From: Pseudomonas sp. ANT_H4
GTDB lineage: Bacteria; Pseudomonadota; Gammaproteobacteria; Pseudomonadales; Pseudomonadaceae
Assembly: GCF_008369295.1 (NCBI RefSeq)
Contig: NZ_VOBG01000005.1
Span: 1 to 64,000, forward strand
Direction of reading: 5' to 3'
DNA length: 64,000 bases
This document shows positions 24,581 through 56,523 of the stretch, one piece after another (position 1 is the first letter of the stretch; each line of letters starts with the position of its first letter). The position numbers and the translations under genes are program-made. The notes under the pieces are model-generated. The model was given only the letters and a program-made list of their open reading frames with translations. It had not been told where the DNA came from and did no database searches.

Positions 24581-24635
24581 TTTATAGGGACGACGTGCCT
24601 TTGTGCTTCCTGCCTATTGCCCCGGATCCCAAGAA

Positions 24636-27600
24636 ATGAACGCTGAAGACTCCTTGAAACTTGCTCGCCGGTTTATCGGGTTACCCCTGGAAAAACGCCA
24701 GATGTTCCTCCAGGCGTTGCACAAGGAAGGGGTGGATTTTTCCCGGTTTCCGATTCCGGCAGGCGTGGAGGCCGAGGACCGACAGGCGCTGTCCTACGCG
24801 CAGCAGCGGATGTGGTTTCTCTGGCAATTGGATCCCGCCAGCGGTGCCTATAACCTGCCGGGGGCTGTGCGGCTCAAGGGCGCGTTGAGCCTGCCCGCCA
24901 TGGAGCAAGCGTTCGCCAGCCTGGTGGAACGTCATGAAACCTTGCGCACGGTGTTCCAGCGCCAGGCCGATGAGCGCTTGTTGCAGGTCGCAGTGCAGCC
25001 GTCGTTGGCCATCGAACAGGTGGACTTCAGCGCCCTGGCGCCCGCCGCGCGTGAACACGCGGTGACGGATGCCGCTACCCGGCAATCACTATTGCCCTTC
25101 GATTTGGCTAATGGGCCGCTGCTTCGGGTGCAATTGCTCAAGCTGGCCGAGCAGGAACACGTGCTTCTGCTGACCCTGCACCACATCGTTTCCGATGGCT
25201 GGTCGATGAATGTATTGATCGACGAGTTCATCCGCTGCTACGACGCCCATGAACGTAATGAAACGCCCCAACTGCCGGCCTTGCCGATCCAGTACAGCGA
25301 CTATGCCCTGTGGCAGCGCCGCTGGCTGGAGGCGGGCGAACAGGCTCGTCAACTAGAATACTGGCAAGCGCGTCTGGGCAATGAGCATCCGATGCTGGAA
25401 CTGCCCATCGACCATCCGCGTCCGGCCATGCCCAGCTACCGGGGCACGCGTCATGATTTTGCGATTGATCCGGCGCTGGCCGCGCAACTGCGCAGTTGCG
25501 CGCAGCAACATAACGTCACGCTGTTCATGCTGCTGCTCGGCGCCTTTAATGTGCTGCTGCATCGCTACACCGGCCAGGGCGACCTGCGTATTGGCGTGCC
25601 GATTGCCAACCGCAACCGCACTGAGGTCGAAGGGCTGATCGGCTTCTTCGTCAACACGCAGGTACTGCGCACCGAGCTGACCGGACAAACCCGCGTCGGC
25701 GAGTTGTTACAAGGTATCAAGGAGCACGCCTTGGGCGCCCAAGCCCATCAGGAGTTGCCGTTCGAGCGCCTGGTGGAAGCGTTGAAAGTCGAGCGTAGCT
25801 TGAGCCACACGCCGTTGTTCCAAGTCATGTACAACCACCAGCCAGTGGTGGCAGACATCGCTTCGGTGAGCACCGCTTCCGGGCTGGAACTGTCCCTGGT
25901 GCAATGGCAAGGCCGCACCACCCAGTTCGACCTGACCCTGGACACTTATGAAAAGTCCGGCACCCTGCACGCCGCGCTGACCTTCGCCAATGACCTGTTC
26001 GATTCCGCCTCCATCGAGCGCATGGCCCGGCACTGGATCAGTCTGTTGCAGGCCATGGCCGTCGATGGCAACCAGCGTATCGGGGAGTTGCCAATGCTGG
26101 CCGCCGATGAGCGGCTAGTGCTGGTCCATGGCTGGAACCAGACCGATGAGCAGTACCCGACCGAGCGCGGCATTCATCAGTTGATCGAAGATCAGGTGCA
26201 ACGAACCCCGCAAGCTCCGGCCCTGGTGTTCGGCGCGACGGTATTGAGCTACGCCCAACTCGACGCTCGCGCCAACCAGTTGGCCCATGCCTTGCGCCAG
26301 CAAGGGGTTGGTCCGGATGTGCTGGTGGGCATTTGTGTCGAGCGCTCCGTGGAAATGGTGGTCGGCCTGCTGGCGATCCTCAAGGCCGGCGGCGCGTACG
26401 TCCCGCTGGACCCGGAGTACCCGCTGGACCGCCTGGCCTACATGATCGAAGACAGTGGCATTGCCCTCTTGCTCAGCCAGACCAGCCTGCTGCATAGGCT
26501 GCCTGCGAACGAGGTCAAGGTCATCATGCTGGACCCGCAGCCCGACTGGTTTGAGGGTTACAGCACCGAGCCCGTCGCGATGACGGTGCATGGCTTGAAC
26601 CTGGCCTATGTGATCTATACCTCGGGCTCAACCGGCAAACCCAAGGGTGCCGGCAACAGCCATCGCGCGCTGGTCAACCGGTTGTGCTGGATGCAGGACG
26701 CCTACGGCCTGGACGGCAGCGACGCGGTGTTGCAGAAAACGCCCTTCAGTTTTGACGTGTCGGTCTGGGAGTTCTTCTGGCCGTTGATGACCGGCGCGCG
26801 CCTGGTGGTGGCCGCCCCTGGCGAACACCGCGAGCCGGCCCGCTTGATCGAAACCATTCGTGAGCAGCACATCAGCACCTTGCACTTTGTACCGTCGATG
26901 CTCCAGGCGTTTATTCACGAGCCTGGTGTCCAGGCTTGTGCAAGCCTCAAGCGCATCGTGTGCAGCGGTGAAGCTCTGGCGCTGGATGCGCAATTGCAAG
27001 TCTTCGCCAAACTGCCGAGCGCGGCGCTGTACAACCTGTATGGGCCGACGGAAGCGGCCATCGACGTCACGCACTGGACGTGCATCGACGAAGGCGCCGA
27101 CAGCGTGCCCATCGGTCGGCCCATCGCCAACCTCGGCACCTACGTGCTGGACGCGCAACTGAACCCGGTCCCGGCCGGTGTTGCGGGTGAGTTGTACCTG
27201 GGAGGCACCGGGCTGGCCCGCAGTTATCACCGCCGTCCGGGGCTGACCTCCGAGCGCTTCGTGCCGTGCCCTTTCACTGCCGGTGCGCGCCTGTATCGCA
27301 CTGGCGACCGGGTGCGTCAGCGTGCCGACGGGGTGATTGAATACCTCGGGCGCCTGGATCATCAAGTCAAGCTGCGGGGTCTGCGCATTGAGCTGGGGGA
27401 AATCGAGACCCGCCTGATGCAGCACCCTCTGGTGCGTGAAACGGTGGTGTTGGTGCAGGGCGGCAAACAGCTGGTGGCTTATCTGGTGCTGGATGCCGCC
27501 GAGCCGACCACGCCGTGGCAGCAGGAGCTCAAGGCCTGGCTGTTGGGCAGCCTGCCGGAATACATGGTGCCGACCTATCTGATGCCGCTGGCGAAACTGC

Positions 27601-30600
27601 CGGTCACCGCCAACGGCAAGCTCGACCGCAAGGCGCTACCGTTGCCGGACGCGGCGCCGCAGCAGGCTTTTGTTGCGCCCGGCAGCGATCTTGAAAAAGC
27701 CCTGGCGGCGATCTGGTGCGATGTGCTGGGCGTTGAGCAGGTCGGCCTGGAAGACAACTTCTTCGAACTGGGGGGCGACTCGATAATCTCCATCCAGATG
27801 GTCAGCCGCGCCCGCCAGGCCGGGATTCGCCTGAGCCCACGGGACCTGTTTCAGTACCAGAGCGTGCGCAGCCTGGCGCGGGTAGCGACCTTTGATCAGC
27901 ACAACGCAATCGATCAAGGCTCGGTCAGCGGCGAAGTAATCCTGACGCCCGTGCAGCAGGTTTTTTTCCAGCAGGCTATCCCGGCCCGTCATCACTGGAA
28001 CCAGTCGTTGCTGCTGACGCCTCGTGAACCGCTGGTGGTCCCGGCGCTGGAAGCGGCGTTGATCCAACTGATCAACCACCATGATGCCTTGCGCCTGCGC
28101 TTTGCCGGTGAGGCAGAGGGCTGGTGCCAAACCTACGCCACAGCGGTCAGCGAGTCCGGGCTATGGCAATGCCACGCCGACAGCGTCGATGAATTGGCCG
28201 CGCTGTGTGACGAGGCGCAACGCAGCCTCGACCTGCGACAGGGGCCGCTGTTGCGCGCCGCGCTGATTAACCTGGCCGATGGCAGCCAGCGTTTGCTGCT
28301 GGTGGTCCATCACCTGGTGGTGGACGGCGTGTCCTGGCGCATCGTATTGGAGGATTTGCAGCAGGCTTATCAGCAGCACGCAGCCGCACAGCCGTCGGTA
28401 CTGCCGGCCAAGACCAGTGCCTACCAGCACTGGGCGCAGCATCTACATGCCCACGCGCAGACCCTCAACGACCAACTGCCGTACTGGCTGGCGCAGTCCA
28501 GCGCCACCGACCTGCCTTGTGATAATCCACAGGGCGGCCTGAACAACCGCCTGGGGCAAAAGATCGAAACCCGCCTCGACGCCGAGCTGACCCGTCAACT
28601 GCTGCAAACCGCCCCGGCGGCCTATCGCACCCAGGTCAACGACTTGCTGCTGACTGCATTGGCCCGCGCCGTCTGCCGCTGGAGCGGCCAGGACGCCGCC
28701 TTGATCCAGCTTGAAGGCCATGGCCGCGAAGACCTGTTCGATAGCCTGGACCTGACCCGCACCGTCGGCTGGTTCACCAGCGTGTTCCCGGTGCGCCTGC
28801 AACCGGCGGCTGAACTGGCGACCTCGATCAAATCGATCAAGGAGCAGTTGCGCGCCGTGCCCGGCAAAGGCCTGGGCCACGGACTGTTGCGCTACCTCGG
28901 CGAACCTGCGGCCCGCGAAGCGCTTTCGGCACTGCCGGCGCCGCGTATCACCTTCAACTACCTGGGGCAGTTCGACCGACAGTTCGATGAGTCGGCACTC
29001 TTTGTTCCGGCTACCCAGGGCAGCGGTCAGGCCCAGGACCCCCAAGCGCCGCTGGCCAACTGGCTGACGGTGGAAGGCCAGGTGTATGGCGGCGAGTTGG
29101 CGTTGCAATGGGGTTTTAGCCACGAGATGTTCAGCGCCTCTACCATCCAGCAGTTGGCCGATGCCTACACTCGGGAACTCAAGGCGCTGATCGAGCACTG
29201 CTGCGCCGCGACGCCGGGCCAGGTCACGGCGTCGGATTTCCCCCTGGCGACCCTGACCCAACAACAACTGGATCGACTGCCGGTGGAAGGCCAGGCCTTC
29301 GACGATATCTACCCGTTGTCGCCGATGCAGCAGGGCATGTTGTTCCACACCTTGTATGAGCCTCAGGCGCAGGCTTACATCAATCAACTACGCCTGGATA
29401 TTCGAGGGTTAGATGTGCTGGCCTTCGGTCGCGCCTGGCAAGCGGCGATCGACCGCCATGACATCCTGCGTAGCAGCTTCCATTGGCTGGGCCTGGGCAG
29501 CGCGCATCAGGTGATCCATCGCCAGGTGGACCTGCAGTTGCAGGTGATCGACGATATCTACGCCGACCGGGATGCCCTGGCCAGCGCCGAACGCGAACTG
29601 GGCTTTGAACTGAGCAGCGCGCCGCTGTTGCGCCTGATGCTGGTGCGCGGTGGCGATGAAACCTGGCATTTGATCTACACCAGCCATCACATCCTGATGG
29701 ACGGCTGGAGCAACGCCCAACTGCTCGGTGAAGTCATCAGCCATTACGCCGGCCATCTATTGCCGGCGCCCCTTGGGCAGTTCCGCGATTACCTGAGCTG
29801 GCTGCAACAGCAAGCATCACAGGCCGGCGAGGCGTTCTGGAAAGCCACCCTGGCGCCGCTGCAAGCGCCCACCTTGCTGGCCGATGCGCTGCGGCCTCCC
29901 GTCGGCGCTACGGGCATGGCGGAGCATCAGGTGAGTGTCGACAGTGCCTTGAGCCAGGCCTTGATCGACTTCTCCCGTCAGCAAAAAATCACCCTCAACA
30001 CCCTGTTTCAAGGGGCCTGGAGCCTGTTGCTGCAACGCTATACCGGCCAGGACTGCGTGGCTTTTGGCGCTACAGTGGCCGGGCGTTCGGCACCGTTACC
30101 GGGCATCGAGCAGCAGTTGGGCTTGTTCATCAACACCTTGCCCATCATCAGCAGCCCTGGGCCGGCCGAGCGGGTCGGGCCTTGGTTGAGCGAACTGCAA
30201 GCGTTGAACCTGAGCCTGCGTGACCATGAACACGTGCCTCTGTATGACATTCAGGCCTGGGCCGGGCAGCAAGGCTCGGCCCTGTTCGACAGCCTGCTGG
30301 TGTTCGAAAACTTCCCGGTGGCCGAGGCGCTCAAGCAAGGCGCGCCCGCCGGCTTGGCCTTTGGTGAACTGCACAGTCACGAACGCACCCACTACCCGTT
30401 GACCCTGGGCATCGAGCTGGGTGCCAGCCTGCGCCTGGCGTTCAGCTACGACTCGGCGTGCTTCAGCGAGGCTGGCGTGCGTCAGTTGAGCGTCAACCTG
30501 CAACACCTGTTGGCGCAGTTGGTTGCCAATGCCCAGGCTTGCCTGGGCACCCTGGAACTGCTGGATGCGCCCGGTCGTCGTGCTGTGCTGGCGCTCAGCC

Positions 30601-35669: not shown

Positions 35670-35683
35670 TTGAGGGCTATGGC

Positions 35684-47600: not shown

Positions 47601-50600
47601 ACCTGGCACTGCTCAAGACCTACCTGCTGCAAGAGTTGCCGGAATACATGGTGCCGGCGTCGATCCTGTTGCTGGAGCAGATGCCCCTGAGCCCCAACGG
47701 CAAGCTGGCGCGCAATCTACTGCCGCTGCCGGAGGCTGTTCAGGCCCAGTCCTATGTGGCGCCGGTCAATGATGTCGAGGCCACACTGGTTGCCATCTGG
47801 CAAACGGTTCTGGGTCTTGCGCAGGTCGGTGTCACCGACAACTTCTTCGCCTTGGGCGGTGACTCCATTGTCTCCATCCAGGTGGTCAGCCGTGCCCGTC
47901 AGGCGGGTATCCGTTTCACGCCCAAGGACCTGTTCCAGCACCCGACCGTGCAGGGCCTGGCCACGGTGGCGAAAACCGGTGTCAGTGCGCTGGTTATCGA
48001 TCAGTCGCCGGTCACCGGTGAAACCCTGTTGCTGGCGATGCAACAGACGTTCTTCGAGCAAGCGATTCCCGAACAGCATCACTGGAACCAGTCGGTCCTG
48101 CTCACGCCGCGTCAGGCCCTTGATGGCTCGGCGCTGGAGCAGGCCTTGAACGCGGTCTGTGCCCACCATGACGCCTTGCGCCTGCGCTTTACCGAGCAGG
48201 CGTCGGGCTGGACGGCTCGCTTCGGTGAAGTGCAAGCGCAAGCGCAACGCGTGTGGCAAGTCAGCCTTGAGCATGCAGAGGACCTTGCCGTGTATGGCCT
48301 TGAAGCCCAGCGCAGCTTGAACCTGCAAGACGGCCAGTTGCTGCGCGCACTGCTGGCGACTTTGGCCGATGGCAGCCAGCGTCTACTGTTGATCATCCAC
48401 CACCTGGTGGTGGATGGCGTTTCCTGGCGCATCCTGTTGGAAGACCTGCAAGTGGCCTATCAGCAAGCGCAAACGGGCCAGCCTGTGCGCTTGCCGGCCA
48501 AGAGCAGTGCTATCAAACACTGGGCAGAGCACTTGCAGGCGTATGCCCGTAGCGAGGTGGTGCAACAAGAGTTGCCGTTCTGGCAGGCCCAGTTGCAAGC
48601 GGGCAGCGAGTTGCCTTGCGACCATAGCGACGCGAGCCTGGAAAATCGCCACGCCGTGACGATCCAGACGCAACTGGATGCCACCCTCACGCGCCAGCTG
48701 TTGCAACAGGCCCCTGCGGCCTACCGCACCCAGGTCAACGATCTGCTGTTGACCGCGCTGGCGCGGGTGATCAGCCGCTGGACCGGCCAGTCGGCCAGCA
48801 GCATTGCCCTGGAAGGTCATGGCCGTGAGGATCTGTTCGAAGACCTCGACCTGACCCGTACCGTGGGTTGGTTCACCAGCCTGTTCCCGGTGCGTTTGCA
48901 CACTCAGGATGACCTTGGCGCATCAATCAAGGCGATCAAGGAGCAACTGCGGGCAATCCCACACAAAGGTATTGGTTTTGGTGCGCTGCGTTACCTGGGG
49001 GATGAGGCGAGCAAGGCCGCCTTGAGTGCCCTGGCGATGCCACGTATTACCTTCAACTACCTGGGGCAGTTCGACAGCCAGTTTGATGACGCTGCCTTGT
49101 TCGTGCCTGCCAGTGAGTCGGCCGGCGCCGAGCAAAGCGCCGCCGCCAACCTGGCCAATTGGCTGACCCTCAACAGCCAGGTCTATGGCGGCGAATTGAG
49201 CCTGAGCTGGACCTTCAGCCAGAAGATGTTCGACAGCCAAACCATCCAGGCTCTGGCGGACGACTATGCCCAGGAACTGAGCGCACTGATCGCCCATTGC
49301 TGCGATGGCGTGCACGGTGCGGTCACGCCGTCCGACTTCCCCCTGGCTGGCTTGAGCCAGGAGCAGTTGGACAGCCTGCCGTTGCCAGCCAGCGCGGTTG
49401 CCGACATTTACCCACTGTCGCCGATGCAACACGGCATGCTGTTCCACAGCCTGTACGAGCAGGCGAGCGGCGCCTACATCAACCAGTTGCGGGTCGATGT
49501 CGACGGCTTGCAGGTTGAGACCTTCCGCGCGGCCTGGCAGGCGGCGCTGGACGAGCATGACATCCTGCGCAGCGGCTTCCTCTGGCAGGGCTCGTTCGAG
49601 CGGCCGGTGCAGGTGGTACACAAACACGTGAGCGTGCCGTTGAGCGTGCTCGACTGGCAGTCCCGTACCGATCTTGACCAGGCCCTGGATGCCCTGGCCC
49701 TGGGCGAGCGCGAACAGCCTTTCGATTTGCAGCAGCCGGGGCTGTTGCGCCTGACGCTGGTGCGCACAGGCGAAGACCGCTATCACCTGATCTACAGCAA
49801 CCATCACATCCTGCTCGACGGCTGGAGCAACGCGCAGTTGTTCGGCGAGGTGTTGCAGCGCTATACCGGAGAGGCGGTGGCGCCATTTGCCGGACGCTAC
49901 CACGACTACATCGCCTGGCTGCAACGCCAGGATCGAGCGGTGAGTGAGGCGTTCTGGAAGCAGCAATTGGCGCAACTCAATGAGCCGACGCGGCTGGCCC
50001 ACAGTGTCAGTCATGGTGTCGAAAGCCTGGGCAGTGGTCATGCCGAGCAGGTCCGTGTACTGGACCGCAGCTTTACCCAACAGCTGGGCGAGTTTGCCCG
50101 CCAGCAGAAAGTCACCCTCAACACATTGGTGCAAGGGGCCTGGCTGCTGCTGTTGCAACGCTATACCGGTCAGGACGCGGTGGCCTTTGGTGCCACGGTG
50201 TCTGGGCGTCCGGCAGAATTGCCGGGTGTCGAGCAGCAGATCGGCCTGTTTATCAACACCTTGCCTGTGGTCGCCAGCCCACGGCCCGAGCAGCGTTTGG
50301 GTGAATGGCTGGAGCAATTGCAGGCACAGAATTTCGCCCTGCGTGAGCAGGAGCACACGCCGCTGTTCGACATTCAGCGCTGGGCCGGGCAGGGCGGTGA
50401 AGCGCTGTTCGATAACATTCTGGTGTTCGAGAACTACCCGGTGTCCGAGGCTTTGGAGCAGGGCGCAACCGGTGGCCTGCGCTTTGGCACGGTGGCCAAC
50501 CATGAACAGACCAACTACCCGTTGACGGTGTTGGTGAATATGGGCGAACGCTTGTCGCTGCATTTTAGTTTTGATCTGGGCAGTTTCAGCGAAGGCGCTA

Positions 50601-53600
50601 TCGAGCAGATTGCGACGGGGATGATCCACCTGCTGGGTTGTCTGGAGGCTGATACGTTGCTGGGTGATATCGACCTGTTGCCGGTGGCTGAGCGCCAACG
50701 GTTGATCGAGGGCTGGAACACCACCACCACCACCGAATACCCGTTGCAGCAAACGGTGCAACAACTGATCGAAACCCAGGTCGAGAAAACCCCAGATGCC
50801 CCGGCGTTGGCGTTTGGTGAAGAACGCTTGAGCTATCGCCAGCTCAACGACCGCGCCAACCAGCTCGCTCACTACCTGATTGAACAGGGCGTTGGCCGGG
50901 ATGTGTTGGTGGGCGTGGCGGCCGAGCGCTCTACCGAAATGGTGCTGGCGCTGGTGGCAATCCTCAAGGCTGGCGGTGCCTATGTGCCGCTGGACCCGGA
51001 TTACCCTCAGGATCGCCTGAGCTACATGTTTGAAGACAGCGGCGTGAACCTGCTGCTGACGCAAACCGCGTTGCTGCAACGCCTGCCCTTGACTGACGCA
51101 ATGCACACCGTGGCCCTGGATCAACCGGGCGACTGGCTGGCGGGCTACAGCACCACCAACCCATCGGTGGGCGTGACCGGCGAAAACCTCGCCTATGTGA
51201 TCTACACCTCCGGTTCCACCGGTAAACCCAAAGGCGCCGGCAACCGCCACGTCGCCCTGACCAATCGTCTGTGCTGGATGCAACAGGCCTATGGCCTGGC
51301 CGCCAGCGACACCGTGGTGCAGAAAACCCCGTTCAGCTTCGACGTCTCGGTGTGGGAGTTTTTCTGGCCGCTGATGACCGGTGCTCGGCTGGTGGTTGCC
51401 GCACCGGGTGATCACCGCGACCCCGCCAAGCTGGTGGCGTTGATCAACCGCGAGCAGATCAGCACCTTGCACTTTGTACCGTCGATGTTGCAGGCGTTCT
51501 TGCAGGACGAATCCGTCCACAGTTGCACCAGCCTCAAACGCATCGTCTGCAGTGGTGAAGCGCTGGCGGTGGATATCCAGCAACAAGTGTTTGCCAAGCT
51601 GCCGAATGCCGGCCTGTACAACCTGTACGGCCCGACCGAAGCGGCTATCGACGTGACCTACTGGACTTGCACCGACGAAGGCCGCGACAGCGTGCCGATT
51701 GGTCAGCCGATTGCCAACCTGGCCACCTACATCCTCGACAGCAGCCTTGAACCGCTGCCAGTCGGCGTAGTGGGTGAGCTTTACCTGGGCGGCATCGGCC
51801 TGGCGCGGGGTTACCACCGTCGCCCAAGCCTGACCGCCGAACGTTTTATCGCCTGCCCATTCGTGGCCGGTGAACGGCTGTATCGCACCGGCGACCTGGC
51901 CCGCTACCGCGCCGATGGCGTGATCGAATACGCCGGGCGTATCGACCATCAAGTGAAGATCCGCGGCCTGCGTATCGAACTGGGTGAAATCGAAGCGCGG
52001 CTGCTGGAACACGAGGCGGTGCGCGAGGCCGTGGTGCTGGCCCGCGACGGCAAGCAACTGGTGGGTTATGTGGTACTGGAACCTTCGGTTGACGCTGATT
52101 GGCGTCACATCCTCACCGAGCATCTGCACGCCTGCCTGCCGGATTACATGGTGCCGAGCCAATGGGTAGCGCTGGAGCATCTGCCGCTGTCGGCCAATGG
52201 CAAGCTGGATCGCAAGGCCTTGCCGGCACCGGATCAGGTCCAGGAGGCCTATGTAGCACCGAGTACCGCCGCCGAGCAGGCGCTGGTGGCTATCTGGCAA
52301 GGGGTGCTGGGCCGGGAGCAGGTGGGGGTCACCGATAACTTCTTCGCACTGGGCGGTGATTCGATTGTGTCGATTCAGGTGGTCAGCCGCGCCCGGGAAG
52401 CGGGTCTGGGCTTGAGCCCGAAGGATTTGTTCCAGCACCCGAATATTCGAGCTTTGGCCCTGCGAGTGGTGAACCTGGACGGCGCCGAGCCTGAGCCCGA
52501 GCATGTAGCGGATCAGGTACTGCACAGCCTCAGCCCCGAGCAGGTGCAGGCGTTGCCGATCCCGATGGCACAGGTGCAAAGCCTTTACCCGCTGTCGCCG
52601 ATGCAGCAGGGCATGCTGTTCCTGGGCCTCAATGCTCCGGATGCCGAGCTGTACGTCAACCAACTAAGCCTGCCGGTCAAGGGCTTGCAGGTGGAGCGCT
52701 TCAAGCGGGCCTGGGAAGTGGCGTTCGCCCGCCATCCAATCCTGCGCACCGGCTTCGTCTGGCAAGACCTTGAGCAGCCGCTGCAATTTGTCATGGATCA
52801 TCTGGAGGTGCCGCTGCGCGAGCTCGACTGGCGCGACGAAGTTGAACCTGAACGACGTGTGCAGGCATTGGCGGCGAGTGAACGAGTCCAGGGTTTTGAC
52901 CTCAATCAGCCACCGCTGCAACGGATTATCCTGGTGCGCCTGGACGACCAGCGCCATCAGTTGATCTGGACCTATCATCACATCCTCATCGATGGCTGGA
53001 GCATCTCCCAGTTGATCGGTGAAGTGCTGGCCGAGTATTCCGGGCAGGCATTGGCGCCGGCATTGCCGTACGAAAACTACATCAGCTGGCTGCAACGCCA
53101 GGATGCCCAGGCGGGCGAGCAGTTCTGGCGCCAACAGTTGGCGGTGCTGGATCAGCCGACCTACCTGGCCGATACGGTTGCGGCGGTTCGTCAGGGCAAG
53201 GGCCATAAGGCGCTTTACAGCCGTTTCGACAGCGCCACCACCGAAGGCTTCAAGGGCTTTGCCCAAAGCCAGAAAGTGACGTTGAACACCCTGGTGCAGG
53301 CGGCCTGGTTGTTGCTGTTGAGCCGTTACAGTGGTCAGCGCAGCGTGGCATTCGGTGCCACGGTATCGGGACGGGCGGCCAGCCTGCCGGGTTCCGAGCG
53401 AATTTTGGGGCTGTTCATCAATACCTTGCCCGTGATCCAGGAAATCACCCCGCACCACTGCGTTGGTGATTGGCTGCGCCAGTTGCAGGCCTACAACCTG
53501 GACATGCGCGAGCGCGAATACACCCCGCTGGCCGATATCCAGCGTTGGGCCGGCAAGGCCGGGCAGGCGTTGTTCGACAGTATTATCGTCTTCGAGAACC

Positions 53601-56464
53601 AGCCGATCGACCAGGCCCTGCGCCAATGGCAGGACGACAGCCTGGCGTTCGGCGACAGCGCCAGTGCCGGGTTGACGGACTTCCCGATGGACTTGATGGT
53701 CACCCTCGAAGACGGTCTGGTGATCGAATACATGTACCTGCAGGAACACTTCAGTGATGCCGTGGTGGAAGGCATTCGCGCCAATATGGAAGGACTGATC
53801 CAGCGCCTGGCCAGCGACGCCGGGCAACGCCTGGGCGCCATCGGTCTGCCTGCCACACCGTCAGCGGTGCAGGCTGCGGCAGCGGTGCGTGAGTCGGGCT
53901 GGGTGCATGAACAGATCAGCCAGTTGGCGGCGGCCCAGGGCGATGCTCCGGCGGTGCTGTTTGCCGAGCGGCGCCTGTCATTTGCCGCGCTGCATACCCG
54001 CGCAAACCGTTTGGCCCGGGCCCTGATCGCCGAGGGCGTGGGCCCGGATGTGCGGGTCGGCGTGGCCTTGCCGCGCAGCGAAACCATGATCGTCGCGCTG
54101 TTGGCGGTGCTCAAGGCCGGTGGCGCGTATGTGCCGCTGGATGCCAGTTATCCACGCGAACGCCTGGCCTACATGATGCAGGACTCGGGTATTGCGCTGC
54201 TGTTGACCGACAGCTTGTTACGTGGGCAGTTGCCGATTCCGGCCAACGTTCATGTACTGGAACTCGACCAACTGACGCTCGATGGTTTACCGGACACTGC
54301 GCCTGCGGTGACGGTGCACGGGGAAAATCTCGCGTACGTGATCTACACCTCCGGTTCCACCGGGCAGCCCAAGGGCGTGGCGGTCAGTCACGGTCCGCTG
54401 GCCATGCACTGCCAGGCCATCGGCGAGCGCTATGAGATGAGCCCGAATGACTGTGAGTTGCACTTTATGTCGTTCGCCTTCGACGGTGCTCACGAGCGCT
54501 GGCTGACCACCTTGACCCATGGTGGCCGGCTGTTGATTCGCGATGACAGCCTGTGGACCCCGGAGCAGACCTACGCGGCCATGCATGAGCATGGCGTGAC
54601 GGTGGCGGCGTTCCCGCCGGTGTACCTGCAACAGCTGGCCGAACAGGCCGAGCGCGATGGCAACCCGCCGCCAGTGCGCATCTACTGCTTCGGTGGCGAT
54701 GCGGTGCCCCAGGCCAGTTTCGACCTGGCCCAGCGCGCCTTGCGCCCGCGGTTCATCATCAATGGCTATGGCCCGACAGAGACGGTGGTGACACCGTTGA
54801 TCTGGAAAGCCGGGCCACAGGACGTTTGCGGCGCCGCCTATGCGCCGATTGGCAGCCGTATCGGCAATCGCAGCGCCCATGTGCTGGACATGGATCTCAA
54901 CCTGTTGCCGAGCGGTCTTGCCGGTGAGTTGTATCTGGGCGGCGAGGGGCTGGCCCGAGGGTATCTGAACCGGCCGGCGATGACCGCCGAGCGCTTTGTT
55001 CCCGATCCTTACAGCCTCGACGGCGCACGCCTGTACCGTTCCGGCGACCTGGTTCGCCAGCGGGCAGACGGTACGACCGATTACCTGGGGCGTATTGACC
55101 AGCAAGTAAAGATCCGTGGTTTCCGTATCGAACTGGGCGAAGTCGAGGCATGCCTCAAAGACAGCGCCGAGGTGCGCGAAGCGGTGGTCATTGCCCGTGA
55201 TGCCGGTAGTGGCAAACAATTGCTGGGTTATGTGATTGCCGCCGACAGCGCGGTCGATCAAGGCCTCGTCCAGCGCCTGCGGGAGCAGTTGCAGCAGACG
55301 CTTCCCGACTACATGGTGCCGACCCACTTGATCCGCCTGGAGCAGTTGCCACTGACACCGAACGGCAAGCTGGATCGCAAGGCCTTGCCGGAGCCGTCCG
55401 CCAATCTCGCCACCGGCGGCTACGTCGCGCCGGTGACCGAGGTGCAAAAGGCCCTGGCGCAACTGTGGCAGACCTTGCTCAAGGTGGAGCGTGTCGGCTT
55501 GGATGACAACTTCTTCGAACTGGGCGGCGACTCGATTCTCAGCCTGCAACTGGTGGCCCGCTCCCGTGTGCTGAAAAACCAGGGGTTCAGCCTCAAGCTG
55601 CGGGACCTGATGCAGAAACCGACCATTGGCGAGTTGACCGCCGATGCTTCGGCCGCTGTGCAACGTTCACCGCTGCTGGTCCTCAGCCCTGCGGTGGCCG
55701 GGCGCTCGCCGCTGTTCTGTGTGCATGCGGGCTTTGGCACGGTGTTCGATTACGAGCCGCTGGCACGGGCACTGTCCGGCCAGCGACAGGTGATCGCCAT
55801 TCAGTCGCGGATGCTGCTTGATCCGCTCTGGCAGGACGCGTCGCTGCACAGCATGGCTCGCGACTACGTCGCTTATCTGCGTCAGCAGCAAGCCGAGGGG
55901 CCTTACCACCTGATCGGCTGGTCACTGGGCGGTACGCTGGCGTCGCTGATGAGCGCAGAGTTGCAACGCCAGGGCCAGACAGTGGAACTGCTGGGTTTGC
56001 TGGATGCGTATGTGCCTGGCGAGCCATCGGTGCCGGTGGATGACTGGCAGGCGGATCTGCGCGAGTTCATCGAAGTGACTCGCTTCGACCTTTCCCGACA
56101 CCTGAAGCTGTCTGGCGCTGAGACTGCGCAAAACCTGCGCCAGCTGTTGGCCGACGCCCTGGCGCGGGAGGGTAGCGATGCGACCCGGCCAGGCTTCGGC
56201 GCCGACGAGTTGGCCCAGGTGTTTACCGTGGCACGACACCTCAAGCAGCGCTCGCTGCAACTGGCGGCGTGCGAGCCGCTCAAGGTTCGTCCCCAGTGTT
56301 GGTGGACGGCAGGTCGCGGCGAAGAGGCGATACGCTTGGCCGGGCAGCTTGAGCAGCCCACCGCCGGTTATCTGCTCGATTGTGGTCACTTTGAAGTGCC
56401 GCGCTCCGAACAATTGTTGGCGTGGCTGGTGGACGTCCTGGCGGAACCGGTTGCGGTCCTTTGA
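35684..56464 (+). CDS. Pyoverdine NRPS, five modules plus thioesterase (PvdD-like terminal synthetase)
   Basis: A 6,926-aa synthetase with modules C-A-T-E, C-A-T-E, C-A-T-E, C-A-T and C-A-T-TE. The start is GTG 35684 with GAGGG ~8 bases upstream. The N-terminus (MQKLIESVAALSAKERKALA) resembles that of PvdD. Codes read by eye are Ser, DGEACGGVT(K), Ser, Ser, DGEACGGVT(K). The repeated second code probably selects hydroxyornithine, because two iron-binding residues are needed and none is otherwise present. The C-terminal thioesterase has GWSLGG (Ser6747), LLDAYVPGE and DCGHFEVP. Serine A domains of modules 1, 3 and 4 are near-identical repeats. Module 4 lacks the epimerase that its carrier motif (GGDSI) and the following condensation domain would lead one to expect. 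It ends 59 bases before an esterase gene and works with NRPS 1 in the cytoplasm. Confidence 0.93.
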   Translation: MQKLIESVAALSAKERKALAILLKQKGINLFGVAPIFKRDADEPLLLSYAQQRQWFLWQLDPDSAAYNLSKALRLIGALDLDALHNSLATLVACHESLRTTFIQDRDQVLQHIGDPVARPLLAEAHEAQWLASGEPGLRALVEAETGASFDLARGPLMRARLLRLAPHQHVLVLTLHHSICDGASLQVMADELVQLYADFSQGRQGSLPPLPVQYADYALWQRHWMEAGERERQLGYWQTQLAGEQPVLELPTDHARPAVQSFAGASVRVELGGRRLEALKRLTQQENVTGFMVLLASFQLLLHRYSGQSDIRVGVPIANRSRSETERLIGFLVNTQVLRAEVDSHATVRHLLQQVRKSALDAQAHQDLPFEQLVDVLQPERSLSRNPLFQVMFNHKAQDPQAASVQLPGLRIEGLEWESPTAQFDLSLNTVEHNGALSAAFIYATDLFDASTVERMAAHWLALLDAMLAAPQQRVDALPMLAASERKVLVEGWNTTATEYPLQQTVQQLIETQVEKTPNAQALAFGEERLSYRQLNERANQLAHYLIEQGVGPDVLVGVAAERSTEMVLALVAILKAGGAYVPLDPDYPQDRLSYMFEDSGVNLLLTQSALLQRLPLTDAMHTVALDQPGDWLAGYSTANPSVSVTGENLAYVIYTSGSTGKPKGAGNRHVALTNRLCWMQQAYGLDASDTVVQKTPFSFDVSVWELFWPLMTGARLVVAAPGDHRDPTKLVELIKREQISTLHFVPSMLQAFLQDESVRSCTSLKRIVCSGEALAVDIQQQVFAKLPNAGLYNLYGPTEAAIDVTYWTCIDEGRDSVPIGQPIANLTTYILDSSLEPLPVGVVGELYLGGIGLARGYHRRPSLTAERFIASPFVAGERLYRSGDLARYRADGVIEYAGRIDHQVKIRGLRIELGEIEARLLEHEAVREAVVLAHDGKRLVGYVVPTQADLLHASDDDQQALRTSLQLHLGLVMPEYMVPAHLLLLEQMPLSPNGKLDRKALPAPDASLQQAAYVAPGTELEQRIATIWQDVLKREQVGITDNFFALGGDSIVSIQVVSRARQAGIILTPKDLFQYQTVQSLARVAQLGSTLHINQAPVTGATPLLPFQQQFFETEIPERQQWNQSLLLKSSQAIDPLRLEQALQALVVHHDALRLNFTPDGQASHARVEQTQPLLWQAEAADEGQLHARCDEAQRSLSLQQGPLLRALLVQMADGSQRLLLAIHHLVVDGVSWRILLEDLQSAYQQLGSASRVKLAPKSSAFKAWAERLEQYAGSDAVQAQLGYWQQTLGNDLIDLPCDNPQGGLQNRHAATVQTRLDPILTRQLLQDAPEAYRTQVNDLLLTALARVICRWAGGASSVIQLEGHGREDLFEQIDLSRTVGWFTSLFPVRLTPAADLEQSLKTIKEQLRGVPEKGLGYGLLRYLGGSDERAAVAQLPIPRITFNYLGQFDGQFDEASLFVPASESSGAEQSIDAPLGNWLTVNGQVYGGELSLEWVYSREMFKDVTVQQLADAYAQELTALISHCSDPAHRGVTPSDFPLAGLSQAQLEVLPFALRDVEDIYPLSPMQQGMLFHSLYEQEGVDYINQLRVDVDGLDSERFQAAWQDTLAAHESLRSAFLWQGVFEQPVQVIARQVELPFVAFDWRGRDDLALALDGAAEEQHKRAFVLDRAPLLRLCLIQTGDARHHLIFTNHHILLDGWSNAQLFGEVLQRYAGQEVAQSAGRYRDYIAWLKGRDSAASESFWTEQLAALDAPTRLAQSLASGDAGAKGHGELVHVLDAAATQRLNTFAREQKVTLNTLVQSAWLLLLQRYTGQSTVAFGATVSGRPSALQGIEQQIGLFINTLPVIAGSEAQQTVGQWLQAVQALNLSLREQEHTPLFDIQRWAGQGGEALFDSILVFENYPLSDALQQAQTSGPRFGEVLTLEQTSYPLTLGINLDETLTLHYGYALQSFSAPVIARINAQLLHLLEQFRQSAQRPTGALDLLTASEWDHLRASNTPQPYTLQPFVHQRIAAQAPDSVALIVDGQTLSYGQLDSRANRLAHALMAEGVGPEVRVAVAMPRSENLMVALLAVLKAGGAYVPLDATYPQERLAYLMQDSGVALLLTASSLIGQLPNVAGLQALELDLMDFNHWPATAPVVDLHPDNLAYVIYTSGSTGQPKGVSVAHGPLSMHCQAIGERYAMTPADCELHFMSFAFDGAHERWLTSLTHGGSLLLRDDSLWTPEQTYAAMHQYGVTVAAFPPVYLQQLAEHAERDGNPPPVRIYCFGGDAVPQASFELAKRALRPQHIINGYGPTETVVTPLIWKAGPELQCGAAYAPIGSRIGDRSTYVLDDQLNPLSQGLCGELYLGGEGLARGYLNRPAMTAERFVPDPFGAPGGRFYRSGDLVRQRADGTTDYIGRIDHQVKIRGFRVELGEIEARLQDNPAVREAVVVAQPGLSGQQLVAYVVPSDLALLQDDRQPAAIKAQLKRVLPGYMVPAHLLLLSALPLTPNGKLDRKALPKPEAGASQVDYQAPQSELEQRIAVIWQEVLRLDQVGLNDNFFELGGDSIISIQVVSRARVAGIHFTPKDLFQHQTVQSLALVARTDSQRVQIDQGPVSGETPLLPVQQVFFELAIPERSHWNQSVLLKPVTALDAGRLEQALQALVSHHDALRMAFSEDATARYLTPAQLHATALLWQVPVADAQALETLSEQAQRSLDLASGVVIRAVLATLGDGSQRLLVAIHHLVVDGVSWRILLEDLQSAYRQLDAGQPLQLPAKTSAFKTWAERLHDHARSPALQDELRFWQAHLAGAVAHLPCDHPKGGLQSRHVLTVHTRLDSNQTRQLLQVAPAAYRTQVNDLLLTALARVICRWTGQASTLIQMEGHGREELFDEIDLTRTVGWFTSLFPVNLAPAAGLGDSVKAIKEQLRSIPQKGIGFGALRYLGNEDAQQVLRGLPTPRITFNYLGQFDGSFDEVDGALFVPSAENAGAEHSLDAPLGNWLTLNGQVYAGELSLDWRFSAQMFDTASIQRLADDLQQELAALIEHCTQALGVTPSDFPLARLSQAQLDALPMAVANIEDVYPLSPMQQGMLFHTLYEQDSADYINQMRLDVGGLDPQRLRQAWQAALDAHDSLRSGFVWQGELAQPVQVVFKHVELPYALHDWQDRKDLPAALDQLADQQRQQGFELAQAPLLNLQLVRIGDTRHHLIFTSHHLLMDGWSSSQLLGEVLQRYSGQAPANQPGRYRDYIGWLQAQDSGVSQQFWREQLAPLSEPTRLAEALAHDKHATVSASGYADHFLTLDRQQTQHLGDFARANKVTLNTLVQAAWLLLLQRHIGQSAVAFGATVSGRPAQLKGVEQQIGLFINTLPVIASPMPEQSVAQWLQVVQAQNLALREHEHTPLFDIQRWAGQGGAALFDNILVFENYPVSEALQQGEPDELNFGAVHSHERTNYPLTLMVNVGEQLAFQFSYIEAKFNGAAIVELAACLETLLARLAESAERALGEIDLLPVAQRQAVVTSWNNTATEYPLQQTVQQLIETQVEKTPDVQALAFGEECLSYRQLNERANQLAHYLIEQGVGPDVLVGVAAERSTEMVLALVAILKAGGAYVPLDPDYPQDRLSYMFEDSGVNLLLTQTALLQRLPLTDAMHTVALDQPGDWLAGYSTVNPSVSVTGENLAYVIYTSGSTGKPKGAGNRQVALTNRLCWMQQAYGLDASDSVVQKTPFSFDVSVWEFFWPLMTGARLVVAAPGDHRDPAKLVELINREQISTLHFVPSMLQAFLQDESVHSCTSLKRIVCSGEALAVDIQQQVFAKLPNAGLYNLYGPTEAAIDVTYWTCTDEGRDSVPIGQPIANLATYILDSSLEPLPVGVVGELYLGGIGLARGYHRRPSLTAERFIASPFVAGERLYRTGDLARYRADGVIEYGGRIDHQVKIRGLRIELGEIEARLLEHEAVREAVVLAQDGPAGKRLVGYVVPVDADLCQTDYLALLKTYLLQELPEYMVPASILLLEQMPLSPNGKLARNLLPLPEAVQAQSYVAPVNDVEATLVAIWQTVLGLAQVGVTDNFFALGGDSIVSIQVVSRARQAGIRFTPKDLFQHPTVQGLATVAKTGVSALVIDQSPVTGETLLLAMQQTFFEQAIPEQHHWNQSVLLTPRQALDGSALEQALNAVCAHHDALRLRFTEQASGWTARFGEVQAQAQRVWQVSLEHAEDLAVYGLEAQRSLNLQDGQLLRALLATLADGSQRLLLIIHHLVVDGVSWRILLEDLQVAYQQAQTGQPVRLPAKSSAIKHWAEHLQAYARSEVVQQELPFWQAQLQAGSELPCDHSDASLENRHAVTIQTQLDATLTRQLLQQAPAAYRTQVNDLLLTALARVISRWTGQSASSIALEGHGREDLFEDLDLTRTVGWFTSLFPVRLHTQDDLGASIKAIKEQLRAIPHKGIGFGALRYLGDEASKAALSALAMPRITFNYLGQFDSQFDDAALFVPASESAGAEQSAAANLANWLTLNSQVYGGELSLSWTFSQKMFDSQTIQALADDYAQELSALIAHCCDGVHGAVTPSDFPLAGLSQEQLDSLPLPASAVADIYPLSPMQHGMLFHSLYEQASGAYINQLRVDVDGLQVETFRAAWQAALDEHDILRSGFLWQGSFERPVQVVHKHVSVPLSVLDWQSRTDLDQALDALALGEREQPFDLQQPGLLRLTLVRTGEDRYHLIYSNHHILLDGWSNAQLFGEVLQRYTGEAVAPFAGRYHDYIAWLQRQDRAVSEAFWKQQLAQLNEPTRLAHSVSHGVESLGSGHAEQVRVLDRSFTQQLGEFARQQKVTLNTLVQGAWLLLLQRYTGQDAVAFGATVSGRPAELPGVEQQIGLFINTLPVVASPRPEQRLGEWLEQLQAQNFALREQEHTPLFDIQRWAGQGGEALFDNILVFENYPVSEALEQGATGGLRFGTVANHEQTNYPLTVLVNMGERLSLHFSFDLGSFSEGAIEQIATGMIHLLGCLEADTLLGDIDLLPVAERQRLIEGWNTTTTTEYPLQQTVQQLIETQVEKTPDAPALAFGEERLSYRQLNDRANQLAHYLIEQGVGRDVLVGVAAERSTEMVLALVAILKAGGAYVPLDPDYPQDRLSYMFEDSGVNLLLTQTALLQRLPLTDAMHTVALDQPGDWLAGYSTTNPSVGVTGENLAYVIYTSGSTGKPKGAGNRHVALTNRLCWMQQAYGLAASDTVVQKTPFSFDVSVWEFFWPLMTGARLVVAAPGDHRDPAKLVALINREQISTLHFVPSMLQAFLQDESVHSCTSLKRIVCSGEALAVDIQQQVFAKLPNAGLYNLYGPTEAAIDVTYWTCTDEGRDSVPIGQPIANLATYILDSSLEPLPVGVVGELYLGGIGLARGYHRRPSLTAERFIACPFVAGERLYRTGDLARYRADGVIEYAGRIDHQVKIRGLRIELGEIEARLLEHEAVREAVVLARDGKQLVGYVVLEPSVDADWRHILTEHLHACLPDYMVPSQWVALEHLPLSANGKLDRKALPAPDQVQEAYVAPSTAAEQALVAIWQGVLGREQVGVTDNFFALGGDSIVSIQVVSRAREAGLGLSPKDLFQHPNIRALALRVVNLDGAEPEPEHVADQVLHSLSPEQVQALPIPMAQVQSLYPLSPMQQGMLFLGLNAPDAELYVNQLSLPVKGLQVERFKRAWEVAFARHPILRTGFVWQDLEQPLQFVMDHLEVPLRELDWRDEVEPERRVQALAASERVQGFDLNQPPLQRIILVRLDDQRHQLIWTYHHILIDGWSISQLIGEVLAEYSGQALAPALPYENYISWLQRQDAQAGEQFWRQQLAVLDQPTYLADTVAAVRQGKGHKALYSRFDSATTEGFKGFAQSQKVTLNTLVQAAWLLLLSRYSGQRSVAFGATVSGRAASLPGSERILGLFINTLPVIQEITPHHCVGDWLRQLQAYNLDMREREYTPLADIQRWAGKAGQALFDSIIVFENQPIDQALRQWQDDSLAFGDSASAGLTDFPMDLMVTLEDGLVIEYMYLQEHFSDAVVEGIRANMEGLIQRLASDAGQRLGAIGLPATPSAVQAAAAVRESGWVHEQISQLAAAQGDAPAVLFAERRLSFAALHTRANRLARALIAEGVGPDVRVGVALPRSETMIVALLAVLKAGGAYVPLDASYPRERLAYMMQDSGIALLLTDSLLRGQLPIPANVHVLELDQLTLDGLPDTAPAVTVHGENLAYVIYTSGSTGQPKGVAVSHGPLAMHCQAIGERYEMSPNDCELHFMSFAFDGAHERWLTTLTHGGRLLIRDDSLWTPEQTYAAMHEHGVTVAAFPPVYLQQLAEQAERDGNPPPVRIYCFGGDAVPQASFDLAQRALRPRFIINGYGPTETVVTPLIWKAGPQDVCGAAYAPIGSRIGNRSAHVLDMDLNLLPSGLAGELYLGGEGLARGYLNRPAMTAERFVPDPYSLDGARLYRSGDLVRQRADGTTDYLGRIDQQVKIRGFRIELGEVEACLKDSAEVREAVVIARDAGSGKQLLGYVIAADSAVDQGLVQRLREQLQQTLPDYMVPTHLIRLEQLPLTPNGKLDRKALPEPSANLATGGYVAPVTEVQKALAQLWQTLLKVERVGLDDNFFELGGDSILSLQLVARSRVLKNQGFSLKLRDLMQKPTIGELTADASAAVQRSPLLVLSPAVAGRSPLFCVHAGFGTVFDYEPLARALSGQRQVIAIQSRMLLDPLWQDASLHSMARDYVAYLRQQQAEGPYHLIGWSLGGTLASLMSAELQRQGQTVELLGLLDAYVPGEPSVPVDDWQADLREFIEVTRFDLSRHLKLSGAETAQNLRQLLADALAREGSDATRPGFGADELAQVFTVARHLKQRSLQLAACEPLKVRPQCWWTAGRGEEAIRLAGQLEQPTAGYLLDCGHFEVPRSEQLLAWLVDVLAEPVAVL
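35821..40330 (+). other. NRPS 2 module 1: C(LCL)-A(Ser)-T-E
   Basis: C: SYAQQRQWFLWQLDP with an atypical core HHSICDGAS near 36210 (Ala-Ser instead of Trp-Ser after DG; catalytic His and Asp kept). A: YTSGSTGKPKG near 37650, serine code D-V-W-H-V-S-L-I-D. T: GGDSIVSIQ near 38830. E: HHLVVDGVSW near 39360. Adds D-Ser. Confidence 0.88.
37161..38522 (+). repeat. Serine A-domain repeat, copy 1 of 3
   Basis: About 1.36 kb of near-identical DNA shared with 46202-47572 and 50711-52075. It begins at the start of the adenylation domain (AATACCCGTTGCAGCAAACG) and ends near LVGYVV, before the A-domain tail. The flanking C and T sequences are clearly less alike, so the repeat covers just the substrate-selecting core. 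Confidence 0.9.
40370..44850 (+). other. NRPS 2 module 2: C(DCL)-A(inferred OHOrn)-T-E
   Basis: C: YPLSPMQQGMLF and HHILLDGW near 40770. A: YTSGSTGQPKG near 42150, pocket D-G-E-A-C-G-G-V-T from FDGAHER, VAAFPPVYL, YCFGGDA and NGYGPTETVVT. T: GGDSIISIQ near 43335. E: HHLVVDGVSW near 43875. The hydroxyornithine assignment rests on siderophore logic, not on certain knowledge of the code. Confidence 0.7.
41750..42990 (+). repeat. Hydroxyornithine-type A-domain repeat, copy 1 of 2
   Basis: Closely similar to 53930-55170, with long shared blocks such as HFMSFAFDGAHERWLT, VTVAAFPPVYLQQLAE and PVRIYCFGGDAVPQASF. Identity is high but lower than among the serine repeats, so the duplication or conversion is older. 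Confidence 0.8.
44880..49370 (+). other. NRPS 2 module 3: C(DCL)-A(Ser)-T-E
   Basis: C: YPLSPMQQGMLF and HHLLMDGW near 45280. A: YTSGSTGKPKG near 46690 with the serine code. T: GGDSIVSIQ near 47860. E: HHLVVDGVSW near 48400. Adds D-Ser. Confidence 0.87.
46202..47572 (+). repeat. Serine A-domain repeat, copy 2 of 3
   Basis: Near-identical to copies 1 and 3. It carries a 9-base insertion near its 3' end (encoding Gly-Pro-Ala in AQDGPAGKRLVG), absent from the other two copies. Copies 2 and 3 share some silent changes, such as GTGTTTGCCAAGCTG, so they look most recently homogenised. Confidence 0.9.
49404..52465 (+). other. NRPS 2 module 4: C(DCL)-A(Ser)-T, epimerase absent
   Basis: C: YPLSPMQHGMLF (His for Gln) and HHILLDGW near 49805. 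A: YTSGSTGKPKG near 51205 with the serine code. T: GGDSIVSIQ near 52355. Only ~230 bases separate this carrier motif from the next condensation core, against ~1,540 in modules 1-3, so no E domain fits. Confidence 0.85.
50711..52075 (+). repeat. Serine A-domain repeat, copy 3 of 3
   Basis: Near-identical to copies 1 and 2, with one extra Thr codon at its 5' end (TTTTEYPLQQ against TATEYPLQQ). It lies one module (about 4.5 kb) after copy 2. Confidence 0.9.
52582..56464 (+). other. NRPS 2 module 5: C-A(inferred OHOrn)-T-TE
   Basis: C: YPLSPMQQGMLF and HHILIDGW near 52975. A: YTSGSTGQPKG near 54340 with the same nine pocket residues as module 2. T: GGDSILSLQLV near 55530. TE: FCVHAGFGTVF, GWSLGG near 55920 and a final GHFEVP. 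A C-terminal hydroxyornithine would fit release as a cyclic hydroxamate. Confidence 0.75.
53930..55170 (+). repeat. Hydroxyornithine-type A-domain repeat, copy 2 of 2
   Basis: Partner of 41750-42990; all nine visible pocket residues are the same in the two copies. Confidence 0.8.
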
Positions 56465-56505: not shown

Positions 56506-56523
56506 TACTACAGAGTGCCTTGT

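Follow-up and report, generated by a model that had tools for sequence, protein, structure and literature searches.

A predicted hydroxyornithine-terminated pyoverdine locus in Pseudomonas sp. ANT_H4 and the hydrolase gene that follows such assembly lines

Pyoverdine S3e20 has the residue order Ser-Lys-Ala-Ser-Ser-AcOHOrn-Ser-Ser-cOHOrn (PMC8888394, PMC9925543), obtained by tandem mass spectrometry (MS/MS; PMC8888394 Table 1), where AcOHOrn is N5-acetyl-N5-hydroxyornithine and cOHOrn is cyclic hydroxyornithine. According to two reviews, hydroxyornithine (OHOrn) is believed, or supposed, to be acetylated before it is cyclised and the product released (PMC6206403, PMC9569983), and the literature passages searched name no enzyme, such as a hydrolase, for the step after acetylation. 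A stretch of 64,000 nucleotides from Pseudomonas sp. ANT_H4 (contig NZ_VOBG01000005.1, positions 1 to 64,000; the window) carries two nonribosomal peptide synthetases (NRPSs), NRPS1 and NRPS2, followed by the gene of a hydrolase, here called HYD. The predicted peptide shares its first two and last five residues with S3e20 and differs in having Thr in place of Ala-Ser, giving eight residues instead of nine. HYD homologues stand behind synthetases with a terminal OHOrn code in the genomes compared, and HYD may be the finishing enzyme of hydroxyornithine-terminated pyoverdines.

Residue assignment and the predicted peptide

The preliminary description of this DNA listed eight adenylation (A) domains in two co-linear NRPSs, in the order Ser, a basic code taken as Lys, Thr, Ser, X, Ser, Ser and X. 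Motif scans and home-made hidden Markov models, which also gave the domain calls, confirm it. The modules are laid out 3 + 5, as LCL-A1-E, DCL-A2, LCL-A3 / LCL-A4-E, DCL-A5-E, DCL-A6-E, DCL-A7, DCL-A8-TE, where LCL and DCL are condensation (C) domains of the L-donor and D-donor types, E is an epimerase and TE a thioesterase domain. The pocket residues, read again from the motifs, are those first given (four Ser domains, DGEDHGTVV, DFWNVGMVH, and DGEACGGVT twice), and the domain scan finds the epimerases where they had been placed, after modules 1, 4, 5 and 6 only. Position 4 of the A2 code is D on manual reading of the motif and A in the automatic alignment; pocket positions follow the GrsA numbering. 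Chance is no issue for this architecture, because the domains are full-length and motif-complete over 32 kb and other genomes show an identical or almost identical order.

The X domains group with hydroxyornithine domains. An A-domain tree of 65 rows was made from the specificities met in this study, duplicate and short domains being left out. Its 15 rows with the X code DGEACGGVT form one clade (SH-aLRT/bootstrap 100/94), sister to three DGECCGGVT rows (joint clade 100/99). The preliminary description had taken X to be hydroxyornithine and had named a phylogeny that puts X with a non-hydroxamate residue as the result that would speak against this; X falls within the hydroxyornithine clade, and the tree rules out another residue. 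The X clade includes a domain of P. fulva NBRC 16637, whose line reads DGEACGGVT-E, Lys-E, Lys-E, DGECCGGVT-TE. The pyoverdine of P. fulva 16639 is Asp-Ser-Ser-AcOHOrn-Lys-Lys-cOHOrn by MS/MS, and 16637 has a similar mass pattern (PMC12195549). DGEACGGVT is thus read as AcOHOrn in 16637, since the order of its line fits the sequenced AcOHOrn-Lys-Lys-cOHOrn end.

Support also comes from genome G164, the closest carrier of the receptor FpvA among 398 genomes of the genus (80% identity; next best 71%). Its NRPS2 is 83.4% identical to that of the window over 6,924 residues and its NRPS1 is Ser-E, Lys, Ala-E, Ser. The full line, Ser-Lys-Ala-Ser-Ser-OHOrn-Ser-Ser-OHOrn, equals the S3e20 residue order at all nine positions. 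The best FpvA among 144 relatives is 71% identical, and the stretches beside the next FpvA matches (G058, G208, G301, G003) hold no NRPS domains. PfAR1 and P. chlororaphis EA105 have the same type of terminal module (Ser or Ala, DCL, DGEACGGVT, TE). The module order of PfAR1 equals the published Lys-AcOHOrn-Ala-Gly-aThr-Ser-cOHOrn and that of EA105 equals Ser-AcOHOrn-Ala-Gly-aThr-Ala-cOHOrn. We infer that these anchor genomes make the compounds matching their module order. The G164 line is also the ground for predicting Lys, not Orn, at A2; the method of PMC11444679 failed to separate Lys from Orn in three cases.

Terminal OHOrn domains of one lineage carry Cys at pocket position 4, whereas most internal ones carry Ala. 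This residue is a possible marker of free versus acylated substrate, a pattern broken by the DGEACGGVT terminal lineage. The DGECCGGVT terminal modules of L168 (P. costantinii), L282 (genome G097), L292 (genome G029) and others lack a thioesterase; their last domain is of the epimerase/condensation type and scores weakly.

The acyl group of the internal hydroxyornithine is predicted to be acetyl, because a siderophore GNAT is present and the formyltransferase matches of the genome are accounted for. The PvdYII-type GNAT (337 aa; PF13523, 190.7 bits; C20:49617-50627) lies 1.5 kb before a pvdG-like thioesterase gene, which precedes pvdL, and among proteins of solved structure the GNAT is best matched by the N5-hydroxyornithine transacylase SidF. 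PvdF was found neither between pvdE and pvdO nor among the formyltransferase-domain matches of the genome. Four of these five matches are PurN, Fmt and two PurU by curated models, and the fifth, a 697-residue frame, is ArnA by size only. Formyl in place of acetyl is ruled out on these grounds. The earlier view of an acylated internal and a possibly cyclic terminal residue can thus be sharpened, to acetyl by the GNAT and the missing PvdF and to cOHOrn by the published lines.

The peptide is very probably Ser-Lys-Thr-Ser-AcOHOrn-Ser-Ser-cOHOrn on the chromophore made by PvdL, stereochemistry apart. With D forms placed by the positions of the epimerases, the prediction becomes D-Ser-Lys-Thr-D-Ser-D-AcOHOrn-D-Ser-Ser-cOHOrn, and the succinate form, C51H76N14O22, has a calculated [M+H]+ of 1237.533 and [M+2H]2+ of 619.270. 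The two NRPSs would extend the PvdL-made precursor acyl-Glu-D-Tyr-Dab by eight residues. PvdA would hydroxylate ornithine, the PvdYII-type enzyme would acetylate it, the internal residue would keep its acetyl group, and the finished pyoverdine would be taken up by the adjacent FpvA. Two bidentate hydroxamate ligands are predicted from sequence, as A5 and A8 fall in the hydroxyornithine clade and a hydroxylase gene is present.

The exact eight-residue sequence, other spellings included, was not found in the literature searched, a search that did not extend to the supplementary list of PMC11444679; the pocket code DGEACGGVT was not found there either. Ser-Lys-Thr-Ser occurs with pyoverdine in one longer software prediction, Ser-Lys-Thr-Ser-X-Orn-Thr-Thr-X (PMC5583256), and none of the Lys-Thr-Ser pyoverdines in the passages seen has the window sequence. 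A survey lists 188 predicted pyoverdines, 151 of them new structures (PMC11444679), and the present prediction adds one combination to an already large family.

A hydrolase gene behind hydroxyornithine-terminated synthetases

The distribution of HYD follows the terminal residue of the synthetases. A HYD homologue lies directly downstream of all 30 OHOrn-terminated lines gathered by their A domains or receptors, independently of HYD; they come from 28 genomes and the identities are 42-86%, the window's own apart. In a sample of named genomes (50 searched out of 61 listed), 31 have a close homologue (E-value 1.4e-74 or better, 44-85% identity), while 19 have distant matches only (8.3e-51 or worse) or none. 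HYD stands directly after an NRPS with a terminal OHOrn code in each of the 31 (one A domain part-read), which overlap partly with the 30-line set. Among the HYD-negative genomes, where only TE-ending NRPSs were sought, an OHOrn ending occurs in 0 of 16; G488, G494 and G482 were left out as their terminal A domain is unreadable. The sixteen endings are ten Thr and six with DAESIGTVS, DADSIGIVS or DADSVGVVD. In 14 of the 20 stretches from the HYD-negative genomes (12 of the 14 with a readable ending), the NRPS is directly followed by an FpvA-like receptor gene, so that these are comparable cassettes lacking HYD. Lines L246, L247, L250, L251, L254 and L255 are TE-ending single-module NRPSs with the codes DAESIGTVS, DADSIGIVS or DADSVGVVD, and five of the six have a receptor downstream.

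HYD also tracks the acetyltransferase PvdY. A genus sample of 109 genomes, including the window's own and some shared with the named set, has HYD in 50, the tally being cut at a gap in E-values (2.6e-74 versus 7.5e-58) with G075 (a shorter match, 51%) counted as negative. PvdY is found in 50 of 50 HYD-positive genomes and in 20 of the 59 others; for its close class the figures are 49/50 and 14/59 (Fisher 6e-15, descriptive only since the genomes are related). Among the HYD-positive genomes, the PvdY of G050 is of the distant class, and the frames that hold it in G049, G022 and G026 are short, with 210-216 residues. An OHOrn-terminated NRPS is directly upstream of HYD in 19 of the 21 HYD-positive genomes of this sample that have upstream sequence. 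Four genomes (G097, G033, G032, G029) have a line of Lys, DLTKIGHVG, Ala, Thr-E, Ala, OHOrn, in which the terminal OHOrn is the only one. This order matches a published pyoverdine without acyl-hydroxyornithine, Lys-OHAsp-Ala-aThr-Ala-cOHOrn, and PvdY is an open 340-residue frame in all four. In the stretches seen of G103, G064, G015 and G051, the terminal OHOrn is likewise the only one.

HYD is a member of the hormone-sensitive-lipase (HSL) family. It matches PF07859 (Abhydrolase_3) at 2.1e-66 and falls below the cut-offs of the curated subfamilies LipP1 (274.5 bits versus 350) and chloramphenicol hydrolase (216 versus 500). The triad S168-D264-H294, the HGGG oxyanion motif and the nucleophile motif GDS(V/A)G are invariant in 29 aligned HYD sequences, from which those with stops or fewer than 285 residues were left out. 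The structural model has the HSL fold (mean pLDDT only 70.9), and the nearest solved structures are esterases, EstDL136 among them. No obvious signal peptide is seen on reading the sequence.

These observations suggest a role for HYD after acetylation, to which we give about an even chance. The terminal residue would be loaded as AcOHOrn, like the internal one, and HYD would remove the acetyl group in the cytoplasm, on the carrier-bound peptide. The freed N5-hydroxylamine would then attack the peptide's own C-terminal thioester, forming the six-membered cOHOrn lactam and releasing the chain. With the thioester attacked by the hydroxylamine, lines without a thioesterase could release their product, and with a transient acetylation strains that have cOHOrn only would need to keep PvdY. 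Literature searches pairing cyclic hydroxyornithine with esterases, or hydroxyornithine with its deacetylation, returned nothing.

Several points weigh against this role. The HYD family is broad, and most of the listed relatives of solved structure are named as esterases or lipases. Free OHOrn may be the substrate of the DGECCGGVT terminal domains, in which case HYD would serve some other purpose in those lines. PvdY does not predict HYD, being found also in 20 genomes that lack HYD, and G056 and G003 (2 of the 21) have no OHOrn-terminated NRPS upstream of HYD. OHOrn-terminated lines lacking a TE could be missed in the 19 HYD-negative named genomes, G404 excepted, where a search for hydroxyornithine domains found an internal one only. 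The genomes are related and the samples share some of them, so the counts are not independent.

The main rival, unlikely but the best of the alternatives, is that HYD works as a separate thioesterase, for release or proofreading, or as a TE acting in trans for terminal modules that lack one. Several DGECCGGVT lines fit this, as they end in a condensation-type domain without a thioesterase (3 of 3 tails tested), with HYD closely behind. A 'thioesterase gene', which could be a HYD homologue, is also mentioned in the pyoverdine cluster of W15Oct28 (PMC4219678). However, HYD is found just as regularly in lines that have a TE (the window and 20 other stretches with a TE match), and the 16 TE-ending lines without terminal OHOrn have no HYD in the stretch read. 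Its match to Abhydrolase_3, not to the thioesterase family PF00975, and its association with PvdY also argue against a thioesterase.

It is improbable that HYD is a hitchhiker, a neutral neighbour of one ancestral NRPS-receptor cassette. Whole NRPS sets are inferred to have passed from one Pseudomonas group to another, and receptors cluster according to pyoverdine type (PMC11366639). Yet HYD follows two divergent types of terminal module with identities down to 42-47%, keeps its catalytic residues in 29 of 29 aligned sequences, and is missing at 14 NRPS-receptor junctions that share this layout.

Slightly less probable still is a terminal residue that stays acylated or free, with a linear or otherwise closed pyoverdine: A8 shares its code with the internal A5 and sits in the X clade rather than in the clade of DGECCGGVT cOHOrn domains, but within the X clade it groups with other terminal TE-type domains (support 92, not starred), the terminal domains of PfAR1 and EA105 belong to lines equal to cOHOrn-ended pyoverdines, and S3e20, which the G164 line equals, ends in cOHOrn. 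Reading the placement of A8 as an acylated terminus is weakened by these published lines with the same module type.

The proposed deacetylation by HYD makes the step after acetylation directly testable by deletion of a single gene. No pipeline can tell AcOHOrn from cOHOrn according to PMC11444679, and HYD could help genome-mining tools to separate them.

The junction before the terminal module

The condensation domain C8 is of the D-donor type, with no epimerase before it. With profiles made from the window's other domains, C8 scores 530 bits for D-donor, 130 for L-donor and 40 for epimerase. It is 46-50% identical to the D-donor C domains of the window and 26-29% to the L-donor ones, and it is placed with DCL domains in a C-domain tree of 59 rows (all epimerase-less C domains and a subset of the others, with duplicate and short domains left out). 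The carrier motifs were counted in the first locus set: GGDS stands before 187 of 187 epimerases and 20 of 20 epimerase-less DCL domains, while all 61 carriers before LCL domains have GGHS or GGNS and none has GGDS.

Epimerase-less D-donor C domains are concentrated at the terminal junction. In a census of distinct domains from both sets (duplicates and C domains at frame ends removed, and DGECCGGVT modules with an E-type domain behind them treated as terminal), the upstream epimerase is missing at 31 of 47 terminal-OHOrn junctions, compared with 1 of 183 others. The epimerase has therefore been lost repeatedly at this junction while the D-type C domain stayed. A single loss holds for the DGEACGGVT set and is overturned by further cases before DGECCGGVT modules. 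The epimerase before the DGECCGGVT module is absent in G097, G033 and G032 and kept in G029, which has the same residue order.

The D-donor type of C8 casts doubt on the L form of Ser7 in the predicted peptide, and this conflict with a simple L-Ser7 counts against the stereochemistry given above. The passages of PMC9774294 consulted give no chirality for cOHOrn-ended peptides. It is nonetheless rather unlikely that Ser7 is D, with C8 taking D-Ser made by another epimerase or tolerating either form. The closeness of C8 to D-donor domains and the epimerase-type motif GGDS kept by the carrier T7 are in favour of D-Ser7. Against it, there is no epimerase between T7 and C8, and on reading C8 the signature of a dual C/E domain, a second His motif near the N terminus besides HHxxxDG, was not seen. 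The frequent loss of the epimerase also suggests that C8 accepts L-Ser. Such repeated loss bears on the donor stereochemistry accepted by D-type condensation domains.

Locus layout and comparison with known systems

The window is supported by its gene content as an assembly line for a hydroxamate pyoverdine (Table 1). PvdL, PvdP, PvdO, PvdM, PvdE and FpvA, which define a pyoverdine cluster, are all in the genome (FpvA and PvdM by family only).

Table 1. Positions of genes and domains in the window
Feature	Position	Strand	Basis or remark
NRPS1, 3 modules, Ser(E)-Lys-Thr	24636..35669	+	ORF 24603-35669, likely ATG 24636, 3,688 residues
A1, DVWHVSLID, Ser	26211..27647	+	pocket motifs, A-domain tree
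E domain of module 1	28716..28970	+	span between GHGRE and NYLGQ motifs
A2, DGEDHGTVV, Lys	30678..32150	+	same clade as Lys domain of G164
A3, DFWNVGMVH, Thr	33843..35318	+	pocket motifs, A-domain tree
NRPS2, 5 modules and TE, Ser(E)-OHOrn(E)-Ser(E)-Ser-OHOrn-TE	35684..56464	+	ORF of 6,926 residues
A4, DVWHVSLID, Ser	37244..38701	+	pocket motifs, A-domain tree
E domain of module 4	38918..40219	+	domain scan
A5, DGEACGGVT, predicted N5-acetyl-N5-hydroxyornithine	41744..43204	+	code, tree
E domain of module 5	43421..44737	+	domain scan
A6, DVWHVSLID, Ser	46280..47731	+	pocket motifs, A-domain tree
E domain of module 6	47945..49255	+	domain scan
A7, DVWHVSLID, Ser	50795..52231	+	carrier T7 has E-type motif GGDS, no E after
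C8, condensation domain of D-donor (DCL) lineage, no epimerase upstream	52535..53821	+	profiles, C-domain tree
A8, DGEACGGVT, terminal hydroxyornithine, predicted cOHOrn in product	53942..55396	+	code, tree
Thioesterase domain	55664..56461	+	domain scan
HYD, alpha/beta-hydrolase, hormone-sensitive-lipase family (PF07859)	56515..57489	+	directly behind NRPS2
FpvA-type TonB-dependent receptor, ORF 883 aa	57592..60243	-	family match
PvdE, cyclic-peptide export ABC transporter family	60282..61931	-	subfamily TIGR01194
PvdO	62049..62942	-	NF051459, above cut-off
PvdM-like M19 dipeptidase	62976..64000, continues to 64424 of contig	-	family match

The open reading frame (ORF) of FpvA exceeds the gene. 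The receptor likely starts at the Met of residue 76, since the homologues in G164 and P. fluorescens P5A have stops opposite residues 25-67. PvdP (curated model, above cut-off) and a MacAB/outer-membrane exporter lie just beyond the window, and a PvdA-type hydroxylase of the Lys/Orn hydroxylase family is found 8 kb past the window (C5:71836-72876). The assembly has 6.13 Mb in 89 contigs, and PvdL and the PvdYII-type acetyltransferase are on a separate contig, C20. The PvdL ORF of 4,315 aa reads A(DMGGYGSLF)-A(DVWHFGRIN)-A(DAEGIGAVM)-E-DCL-A(DIWELTADD), presumably the acyl ligase, Glu, D-Tyr and Dab modules. For the window, P5A and G164 alike, the NRPS2 Ser domains A4, A6 and A7 are closely similar and group with one another inside their own genome, a pattern resembling homogenisation by gene conversion in each genome separately.

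HYD and the acetyltransferase each have a described relative. EstDL136, a chloramphenicol-metabolising esterase of the HSL family (PDB 6aae, 6iey), has the HSL fold and catalytic motifs of HYD, with 37-38% identity in the Foldseek match and a sequence match of 1.7e-57. EstDL136 presumably cleaves an N-acyl bond, and we know of no link between it and pyoverdine. PvdYII of P. aeruginosa type II is an acetyltransferase tied to cOHOrn formation (PMC6206403, PMC9569983; in UW4, PMC3596284), and the window genome has a GNAT of PvdYII type, assigned by its siderophore GNAT domain near pvdL.

The nearest peptides and lines differ from the window to different degrees. Compared with the S3e20-like line of G164, NRPS1 appears to have exchanged an Ala-E-C-Ser stretch and a Thr domain from A3 on, because identity falls from 75-81% at C3 to about 44% at A3 (against the G164 Ala domain) in two 150-residue windows. 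The pyoverdine Ala-Lys-Thr-Ser-AcOHOrn-cOHOrn (S3b16; P. umsongensis) shares the Lys-Thr-Ser-AcOHOrn core and the cOHOrn end; it differs in Ala at position 1, in lacking Ser-Ser before cOHOrn and in the codes DGECTCGIT and DGECCGGVT. Lines matching it in G048, G005, G045 and G087 have HYD too. The arrangement of the window is not unique, as P. fluorescens P5A (NZ_MSDF01000058.1), whose pyoverdine is not described in the literature searched, has the same one. Its module order and codes are identical to those of the window, with identities of 79.7% for NRPS1, 84.2% for NRPS2, 85% for HYD and 77% for FpvA.

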